DNA of 31,781 nucleotides, taken from contig NYZA01000011.1 of NCBI GenBank assembly GCA_002686955.1, positions 1 to 31,781 of the forward strand, in the 5' to 3' direction. The notes below the pieces were generated by a model that saw nothing but the letters and a program-made list of their open reading frames with translations, had not been told where the DNA came from and did no database searches. How positions within the stretch are numbered: position 1 is the stretch's first letter; every line of letters starts with the position of its first letter. Below, piece by piece: positions 21,302 to 29,439 of this stretch. A program made the position numbers and the translations under genes. The stretch is from Gemmatimonadota bacterium. Its GTDB lineage: Bacteria > GCA-2686955.

Positions 21302-22909
21302 ATGCGTCTAGCAACAGTCCTCCACATGATCGGGGCGCTTCTCGTCGCACTCTCGGCGTGCATGTTGCTCACACTGGCCGTCAGTCTGCTTTCCGACGAT
21401 GGCATCTGGCGACAGTGGATCTCGGCGTTTTCACTCACGCTGCTCTCAGGCATCGGACTCTTCGTGGCCACCGGCTCCGCGGCCAGCCCCTCCGCCAAAC
21501 GAGAAACCAGCGACGCATTTTCCGCTCTCGCACGAGCTATACGTGAACTTCGATTCCGCGAGAGCCCAGAGGGCTCGGGCATCGGCGGAGCCCTCTTCCA
21601 GGTCCTTGGTCTGTTCGCTCAGTTCACGGAACCGGCCGACGACCTCAGGCGAAGCGAAGGCTTCGCGGCCGTATCGATCGGATGGGTCGCAATGGCGGTA
21701 TTCGGCGCCGTCCCCTTCTTGCTCTCCGGCTCGATCCCATCGATCACCGATGCCTTCTTCGAGACGATGAGCGGTTTCACCACCACGGGAGCCTCGATCC
21801 TCACCGACATCGAAGCCCTCAGTCCTTCGATCCTCTTCTGGCGCTCGCTCACGCACTGGATCGGAGGAATGGGGATCATCGTGCTCTCTCTGGCGATCCT
21901 CCCTTTTCTCGGTGTCGGCGGAATGCAGCTCTTTCGAGCCGAAGTTCCGGGGCCCGCCCCCGATCGCCTGCAGCCGCGGATCAAGGAGACCGCCAAGCTC
22001 CTCTGGGGTGTGTACGTCGCGCTTACCGTTCTCGAAATCGTGTCGCTGACTATCGCGGGCATGCCCTTGCTCGATTCATGTTGTCACGCTTTCGGCACGC
22101 TCGGAACCGGCGGATTCAGCACGAAGAACGGATCGATCGGTGCGTACGATAGCGCGGCGATCCACTGGATCATCATCGTATTCATGCTCTTTGCCGGCTC
22201 GAACTTTACGCTCCATTTCATGGCCTTGCGCAACAGGAGTATCAAAGGCTATCTAGGCGACGTTGAGTTTCGCATCTACGCACTGGTTACGATCGTTGTG
22301 GTCGCAACGATTTTCGGCATCCTGCAAATCGGTCGCTCAGGGACGACCGACACCAACGAGGCATTCCGGTCCGCGGCCTTCACCGTAGTGTCGCTGAGCA
22401 CATCGACCGGCTACGCGACCGCCGACTACGCGCAATGGGCGGTGCTCACGCATGCCCTGCTGCTGATCCTGATGTTCGTCGGGGGGTGCGCCGGATCGAC
22501 CGGAGGCGGTTTCAAAATGGTCAGAGCCGTGCTTCTGGTCCGCTTCACCCGGATCGAGCTGCGGCGCCTTCTTCACCCACGCGCGGTGATTTCGGTCAAG
22601 TACTCCAACCGGCGGGTGCCGGAGTCGATTATCCAAAACGTCCTCGGCTTCTTCCTACTCTACATGATCTTCCTCGGCCTCGGCGCGGTCTGCCTCACCT
22701 TCTTCGGCATCGACCTGATCACCGCGGGAACGGCGTCGTTGGCGTGTCTGAGCAACATCGGCCCCGGCCTGGGCGACGTGGGCCCCACGGCAAGCTACGC
22801 CTGGATGCCTGATGCGGCGAAGTGGCTCCTAGCGGCGTGGATGCTGCTCGGGCGCCTCGAGATCTACACGGTGCTGATCTTCTTCGCGCCGGAGCTCTGG
22901 CGGCGCTAG
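21302..22909 (+). CDS. trkH: Trk potassium uptake channel protein
   Basis: This 535-residue membrane protein of the TrkH/KtrB superfamily has four pore-loop repeats with their filter glycines: SGFTTTGASILTDIE, GTLGTGGFSTKNGSI, VSLSTSTGYATADYAQW and LSNIGPGLGDVGP. Long hydrophobic helices separate them, and it ends with the family-typical GRLEIYTVLIFFAPELWRR. It mediates K+ entry together with TrkA. The TAG stop (22907-22909) lies inside the CTAG terminus of the foldback element that follows. Potassium uptake also matters for pyruvate kinase, which generally needs K+, but no regulatory link is visible. Confidence 0.93.
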   Translation: MRLATVLHMIGALLVALSACMLLTLAVSLLSDDGIWRQWISAFSLTLLSGIGLFVATGSAASPSAKRETSDAFSALARAIRELRFRESPEGSGIGGALFQVLGLFAQFTEPADDLRRSEGFAAVSIGWVAMAVFGAVPFLLSGSIPSITDAFFETMSGFTTTGASILTDIEALSPSILFWRSLTHWIGGMGIIVLSLAILPFLGVGGMQLFRAEVPGPAPDRLQPRIKETAKLLWGVYVALTVLEIVSLTIAGMPLLDSCCHAFGTLGTGGFSTKNGSIGAYDSAAIHWIIIVFMLFAGSNFTLHFMALRNRSIKGYLGDVEFRIYALVTIVVVATIFGILQIGRSGTTDTNEAFRSAAFTVVSLSTSTGYATADYAQWAVLTHALLLILMFVGGCAGSTGGGFKMVRAVLLVRFTRIELRRLLHPRAVISVKYSNRRVPESIIQNVLGFFLLYMIFLGLGAVCLTFFGIDLITAGTASLACLSNIGPGLGDVGPTASYAWMPDAAKWLLAAWMLLGRLEIYTVLIFFAPELWRR

Positions 22910-23090
22910 CCCGCATTTCTCACGAGATTCCGTAGCGAGACCGTGCAGGTCCTTGTCCTGCCGGTGCTTCGTGCCGATTCGAAGCGGAGGCGTAGTGGTG
23001 CTACGTCGCACAAGGCGAAACGGTGGGAAGTGCCGGCAGGACAAGGACCTGTGCGGTCGCAGCAGGAATCTAGTGAGATATCCGGGCTAG
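22906..23090. repeat. 185-bp foldback (MITE/REP-like) element filling the trkH-lipoprotein gap
   Basis: The two ends are CTAGCCCG (22906-22913) and CGGGCTAG (23083-23090), and inverted similarity extends inward for about 58-59 nt per arm (about 49 matching positions by hand alignment). It culminates in a perfect 19-bp pair CAGGTCCTTGTCCTGCCGG (22946-22964) / 23033-23051. The 68-nt interior has two small hairpins, GCTTCG (22966-22971)/CGAAGC (22980-22985) and CGTAG (22991-22995)/CTACG (23001-23005). The terminal CTAG supplies the TAG stops of both flanking convergent genes. It has no coding capacity. It could be a non-autonomous mobile element, a REP-type unit, or a bidirectional terminator. 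Confidence 0.8.
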
Positions 23091-23317
23091 GATTCCGTCT
23101 CGGAACTCAGCTCGCTCAATCTGGCGCGGGCCTCCGCGGCCGCCTCGGTATCGGGGTACTTCTCGACCACCCGCTGGTAGAGCTTGGTCGCGTTCGGGAT
23201 ATTGCCCTGAGCCTCTTCGAACGCCGCGTGGTCGGCCATCTCGCGAGCCTTCCCCTCGGATCCCGCGCAGGACGAGAGAAGCGCGGCGAAGCCTATCGCC
23301 AGCAAGGACCGGTTCAT
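23087..23317 (-). CDS. Small TPR-like lipoprotein
   Basis: This 76-residue protein has a lipoprotein signal, MNRSLLAIGFAALLSSC, with lipobox LSSC. The mature part is one helical hairpin pair with tetratricopeptide character (EEAQGNIPNATKLYQRVVEK then YPDTEAAAEARARLSELS), like fragments of YbgF/BamD-type proteins. The family function is unknown. Its TAG stop (complement of 23087-23089) falls in the right CTAG end of the foldback element, so the original C-terminus may have been changed by the insertion. It diverges from the esterase gene across 72 bp. Only a weak GAGAG precedes the ATG. Confidence 0.72.
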   Translation of the reverse strand: MNRSLLAIGFAALLSSCAGSEGKAREMADHAAFEEAQGNIPNATKLYQRVVEKYPDTEAAAEARARLSELSSETES

Positions 23318-29287: not shown

Positions 29288-29439
29288 GGGTTCGCGCAAG
29301 AATAGCTTGTCATTTTGACGCCCAGATGTGCGGCAGATCTGGTCGATCGGCAAGTTCCGAAACCGTCGGGACTTGCCGATCGACCGGAGATGTTGTGCAG
29401 ATGGGAGGCCAAATGACATGTCATTCTTGCGCGAACCCC
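29288..29439. mobile_element. 152-bp foldback MITE-like element with TA flanks
   Basis: Left end GGGTTCGCGCAAGAAT (29288-29303); right end ATTCTTGCGCGAACCC plus C (29423-29439). The inverted match continues inward with TGTCATTT (29308-29315) / AAATGACA (29411-29418). In the centre lies a 15-bp perfect stem GGTCGATCGGCAAGT (29341-29355) / 29371-29385, extended by CCGA/TCGG around a five-base loop. Both sides are flanked by TA (29286-29287 and 29440-29441), as expected for a TA target duplication of IS630/Tc1-mariner-type elements. There is no coding capacity. The right arm also holds a 14-bp palindrome AATGACATGTCATT (29412-29425), degenerate on the left. It could serve as terminator for the genes on either side. 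Confidence 0.8.

Follow-up and report, generated by a model that had tools for sequence, protein, structure and literature searches.

The potassium uptake gene trkH and a small lipoprotein-like gene converge, within the 31,781-nucleotide stretch of DNA that was analysed (the window), on a strongly folding inverted repeat that forms the entire gap between them. An earlier note on this DNA had described the repeat as 185 bp long, filling the intergenic gap and ending in CTAG on both sides, with the stop codon of a flanking gene inside each tip; the sequence and coordinates bear this out (Table 1). How did two genes come to end in the two tips of one repeat? The feature has the form CTAG-[177 bp]-CTAG, in which terminal inverted repeats are bounded by a target-site duplication, as in a MITE. 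No transposase gene is present in the 177 bp, which are crossed only by mechanical ORFs. Pfam searches identified TrkH as PF02386 at 5e-71, and matched the 76-aa product of the opposite gene to a TPR repeat with weak support.

Table 1. Parts of the element and its target genes, as interpreted in the text (positions are those of the window)
Feature	Position	Strand	Remarks
Whole feature	22906..23090	.	Probable MITE of subfamily A, 177 bp, flanked at either end by the 4-bp target duplication
Left target-site duplication	22906..22909	+	CTAG; TAG at 22907-22909 is the trkH stop
Right target-site duplication	23087..23090	-	CTAG; minus-strand TAG at 23089-23087 ends the lipoprotein-like gene
Left terminal repeat	22910..22923	+	CCCGCATTTCTCAC; same sequence as the ends of IS1380-family elements
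Right terminal repeat	23073..23086	-	CCCGGATATCTCAC; 2 mismatches relative to left terminal repeat
Left subterminal block	22928..22941	+	TTCCGTAGCGAGAC; common to the L327 insertion sequence and MITEs of other taxa
Right subterminal block	23057..23068	-	TTCCTGCTGCGA; second end type, common to MITEs of other taxa
Inner stem, left half	22946..22964	+	Perfect 19-bp stem
Inner stem, right half	23033..23051	-	Perfect 19-bp stem
trkH	21302..22909	+	Potassium uptake, PF02386; target gene with duplicated stop codon
Small lipoprotein-like gene	23087..23317	-	Second target gene; product of 76 aa with a weak TPR match

The genome that contains the window (G000; 4.28 Mb in 270 contigs, 84.5% complete) was searched with BLAST and with a pattern for the element terminus, and 89 copies or fragments were catalogued. 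The search for dispersed CTAG-ended copies that the earlier note had proposed thus shows that the sequence is not single-copy, and that the element is short, multicopy and dispersed, as MITEs are. The terminus pattern matched 114 times, compared with 14 matches for the reversed control. Two subfamilies were recognised, A (to which the copy at trkH belongs) and B, which are about 75% identical to each other. A contig end is no more than 30 bp away from 60 of the 89 copies or fragments, so some insertions will have been entered from both sides and hence counted twice, and the repeat is a major cause of breaks in this assembly. Two copies (L010 1501-1686 on contig C120 and L020 1501-1684 on contig C155) have arms of differing type and look like A/B hybrids; they could be products either of recombination or of short-read misassembly.

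CTAG is self-complementary, so a single copy cannot reveal whether it flanks the inverted repeat or belongs to it. Identical tetranucleotides flanked 12 of the 16 two-ended copies in G000, and in three of these 12 they were non-palindromic direct repeats, TTAG/TTAG or CTAA/CTAA. In other genomes 21 of 27 end pairs matched; six were non-palindromic, all of them direct and none inverted. The element proper begins CCCGCATTTCTCAC, and CCCG stood at its start at 95 of 103 ends. Judged on these alignments, the CTAG tips are a duplication of a YTAR target, most often CTAG. This duplication of four bases differs from the TA duplication that characterises IS630/Tc1-mariner MITEs. Since tips that vary between copies as target-site duplications are not part of the element, the stop codons would have come from the target genes.

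The copy at trkH has CTAG at both tips and each serves as a stop, and the earlier note had read it as a mobile element with stop codons built into its own tips, which would supply ends to the genes that it enters. The mobile character fits the many dispersed CTAG-ended copies. Stops as element sequence do not fit tips that vary between CTAG, CTAA and TTAG, with direct duplications of the last two around other copies, and IS1380-type elements duplicate the same targets (see below). Orthologues of both target genes also end at about the same residue when no element is present. In the nearest relative (G001, the only genome of the same family among the relatives searched), trkH is 69% identical, has the same end residue and uses a TGA stop; the lipoprotein gene is 59% identical and ends within about one residue of the same place. 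Neither is accompanied by the element. Stop positions are therefore independent of the element, and the lipoprotein orthologue in particular is the kind of gene that had been named in advance as speaking against ready-made stops. We regard built-in stops as very improbable.

Under target-site duplication, the empty site would have been one palindromic CTAG shared by the overlapping TAG stops of the two convergent genes (..GCGGCG-CTAG-GATTCC..). Insertion would have duplicated this single CTAG so that each gene kept its stop, and the inserted element would have become the whole intergenic gap. As trkH and the lipoprotein gene are not neighbours in G001, that genome did not show the exact empty site. 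A second double-stop locus was found in a gammaproteobacterium (L221), where a 76-bp element has the end of a 176-codon ORF, which we take to be anti-anti-sigma-like, in one tip and that of a 573-codon ORF in the other.

The termini point to the family from which the element may derive. The pattern YTAR-CCCGCATTTCTCAC was seen in contigs of many phyla among the matches listed, of which single ones may be due to chance. On plasmid pKF715A of P. putida the same ends bound a 1655-bp IS1380-family insertion sequence with a CTAG duplication (the WP_034018616.1 element), and a Stutzerimonas plasmid bears the same transposase. A 1650-bp element of Bradyrhizobium has the same ends and a CTAA/CTAA duplication. 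The same ends, with a CTAG or CTAA duplication, surround IS1380-family transposases at two other loci (L307 and L309), and Marinobacter and further elements carry identical ends or variants of them. The match to ordinary IS1380 elements extends over only about 14-16 identical bases. Both matching termini and the same target duplication (CTAG or CTAA), as expected of an IS1380-derived MITE, were thus found. Matches to PF13701 were present in 16 of 25 genomes with these ends (a relative, G036, being one of the 25) and exceeded the curated cut-off in 14, compared with three of 14 control genomes, one of them over the cut-off. No described family with exactly these ends had been known to the earlier note; they can now be identified as IS1380-type termini.

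A full-length insertion sequence of 1763 bp flanked by CTAG/CTAG (L327) was found within the genome of a gammaproteobacterial locus, L195. It shares with the element both the terminus and the subterminal block GTAGCGAGAC, and CCCGCTTTTCTCACAGCACTTCGTAGCGAGACGG occurs at both of its ends. Its 524-aa transposase matches PF13701 at 9e-21 and scores 131 bits against the IS1380 NCBIfam model; as this is below the curated cut-off of 180, the protein represents a divergent IS1380 branch. That branch is the best candidate for the driver of the element, the longer end match resting on this one insertion sequence. Alignment of ends across genomes revealed a second end block: in G000 and at L156, TTC-CGTAGCGAG stands at one end and TTC-CTGCTGCG at the opposite one, and variants of these blocks occur in G036 and at L200.

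A transposase with the same ends, another check named beforehand, was therefore found in other genomes as an IS1380-type enzyme; no IS1380-type transposase, ordinary or L327-type, was found in the 84.5% complete G000 assembly, whose 270 contigs break at these repeats. Two PF01609 matches in that genome (L132 and L133) were rejected as drivers, being without these ends. A search for matching ends gave none near L328, nor near the relatives of the 524-aa transposase in Polaromonas and Aliarcobacter. The same search around IS1380A, ISAzs25 and a viral relative (L299) also gave no matching ends, so either not all IS1380-family elements have them or they lie beyond the fetched flanks. A scan of viral contigs with the L262 transposase yielded two relatives, of which one has CCCG ends flanked by YTAR; the viral contigs scanned contained no relative of the 524-aa transposase and no match to the extended-terminus pattern.

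From these comparisons we consider the feature at trkH to be a MITE, that is, a non-autonomous, transposase-less IS1380-type derivative that was inserted at YTAR and duplicated the shared stop CTAG, with a probability of about 0.9. A DDE transposase encoded elsewhere would bind the termini CCCGCATTTCTCAC together with the subterminal GTAGCGAG or CTGCTGCG block, and would place the element at a YTAR sequence, usually CTAG, with duplication of the four target bases. The target sequence itself is shared with other families: IS5 is known for YTAR (PMC10359306), and the IS481-family transposon TnRErm46 inserts at CTAG (PMC6794481). A MITE derived from one of these would enter the same sites. The element's termini, however, match IS1380-type elements in several genomes, and the terminal repeat of TnRErm46, TGTTGCGGGTCATGACGTTG, is unlike them, so that we attach hardly any weight to such an origin.

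We then turn to the structure of the element. The perfect 19-bp inner stem would be expected 0.02 times by chance, and the outer arms (22906-22931 and 23065-23090) are 88% complementary. The predicted DNA fold of 216 nt has a free energy of -76.3 kcal/mol (z = -12.4), which none of 200 shuffles equalled, and that of the 185-nt RNA has -130.2 kcal/mol (z = -15.1). Both are far more stable than expected by chance. The earlier note had pictured two arms of 58-59 nt around an open loop with two hairpins. The perfect inner stem of that picture stands; pairing, however, continues along almost all of the 185 nt, and a single apical hairpin is present in the minimum-energy fold. The helix is kept across 19 near-full-length copies, with 95.9% of cells paired. 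In the same copies, both sides have changed in 20 of 62 helix pairs, compared with 10.6 in shuffles and 2-6 when the alignment was slid. Much of this covariation separates subfamily A from subfamily B and may represent few events; it could arise equally from one arm correcting the other and from selection on RNA.

Such stability and conservation between two convergent genes would also be expected if the palindrome had been domesticated at trkH, and was kept there as a bidirectional terminator or 3′-end processing signal. No intrinsic terminator, which would consist of a GC-rich stem-loop and a downstream U/T tract, was found on either strand between 22700 and 23400. Every copy, moreover, has the structure wherever it is located, so the palindrome is a property of the element rather than of this site, and the covariation that might argue for a retained function falls largely between the subfamilies. 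Domestication at this locus is on balance unlikely. The element had no match in Rfam at the gathering threshold; the sole weak match, to a plant microRNA precursor (19.7 bits, where the gathering score is 200), was dismissed as a generic hairpin match. If transcribed, the palindrome would give a long RNA hairpin at the 3′ ends of both mRNAs, perhaps a substrate for RNase III or a stabiliser of the 3′ end. A role of the inserted MITE at mRNA 3′ ends is possible.

Ends of the element coincide with stop codons at other loci as well. In G000, 15 of 88 ends coincided with the stop codon of a long ORF whose GC3 was of coding type, compared with 10 of 268 background YTAR sites (p = 1e-4). In other genomes, with ORFs of at least 150 codons, the figures were 24 of 95 ends and 103 of 1836 background sites (odds ratio 5.7, p = 2e-9). 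Ends at long-ORF stops are therefore about five times commoner, by odds ratio, than background YTAR sites both in G000 and in other taxa, a size that is approximate as gene calls were crude, ends belonging to a single copy depend on each other and background sites were drawn from the elements' own flanks. The greedy ORF caller overcalls in the GC-rich G000, placing the copy in the window inside an antisense ORF, and its G000 row was excluded.

The excess persisted when sites inside genes were removed (22% of ends in G000 against 4-7% of background YTAR; in the other genomes the counts were 8 of 15 and 16 of 111, respectively), as would be expected if the transposase or its complex actively targeted stop codons or gene 3′ ends beyond the YTAR sequence. 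The remaining intergenic sites, however, include promoters, where insertions are costly, and the gene calls are crude. An unrelated MITE of G000 that also duplicates CTAG showed an equal excess (6 of 28 ends at stops against 10 of 268), as survivorship predicts, and active targeting seems quite improbable to us. The likeliest cause is instead the survival of harmless insertions that were not purged. Insertion at a stop codon is harmless for any YTAR-duplicating element, since the duplication keeps the stop of the gene, and such insertions therefore survive; the suggestion that landing at gene ends does little harm was in this sense correct. A broader proposal, that IS1380-type YTAR elements are guided to the 3′ ends of genes, for example through transcription or translation termination, and that this is an evolved safe-site strategy across many phyla, we hold to be highly doubtful.

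The element has the termini CCCGCATTTCTCAC and the YTAR (CTAG, CTAA) duplication of IS1380-family insertion sequences such as the WP_034018616.1 element of pKF715A and L327. Those are about 1650-1763 bp long and encode a transposase, whereas the element is 177 bp long, has none and is a palindrome over its full length. Like the Correia/NEMIS repeats of Neisseria and RUP of pneumococcus it is short, multicopy, mostly intergenic, transposase-less and hairpin-forming with terminal inverted repeats; it differs from them in its termini and in its YTAR target, theirs being TA. piggyBac elements have a palindromic 4-bp target, TTAA, and termini that start CCC; the preferred target here is CTAG, not TTAA. 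IS1380 serves as an outgroup in piggyBac trees (PMC10813416). REP sequences, as defined in PMC3733652, are palindromes of 20-40 bp that carry a tag of the GTAG or CGTC type and are associated with a RAYT transposase; the element differs from REP/BIME sequences in its 177-bp length and in that its tetranucleotide is a duplicated target.

Bacterial MITEs that fold into hairpins are well known (PMC2229807, PMC10969869). Literature searches, which left most subscription journals and ISfinder outside their scope, brought up no paper in which IS1380-type MITEs, or these ends, are described; neither the terminus sequence nor the combination of IS1380, MITE and CTAG gave a match. The principle of sparing stops is already published: in Rhodococcus equi the CTAG duplication of TnRErm46 preserves the TAG stop of some target genes, which remain uninterrupted (PMC6794481). 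TnRErm46 spares stops in the same way, but is a large, autonomous transposon that carries resistance, and neither its termini nor its transposase is related. The present analysis names a probable origin for an abundant repeat that breaks the G000 draft assembly, ties palindromic repeats across many bacterial phyla to IS1380-type transposases, and suggests a simple rule, that a YTAR-duplicating element spares any gene whose stop codon it strikes.

Several other repeats were noted. Elements of 176-177 bp occur in unrelated genomes (L098, L156, L180, L187, L200, L206 and L223); these are full-length palindromes with differing arm sequences, and their near-constant length possibly indicates a length constraint. 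G000 contains a further MITE family, unrelated to the first, with elements of about 161 bp whose termini are GAGCCTGTTGCGCATAG and which duplicate CTAG (for example L267 1485-1654, L271 388-556 and L282 1485-1653), with 92 candidates at first look. The two MITE families adjoin each other, with one CTAG in common, on six G000 contigs (C155, C29, C57, C109, C244 and C252), as expected if one enters the target duplication of the other. Another long inverted repeat lies in the window at 29288-29438, with 73-nt arms that are 78% complementary and separated by a 5-nt spacer.
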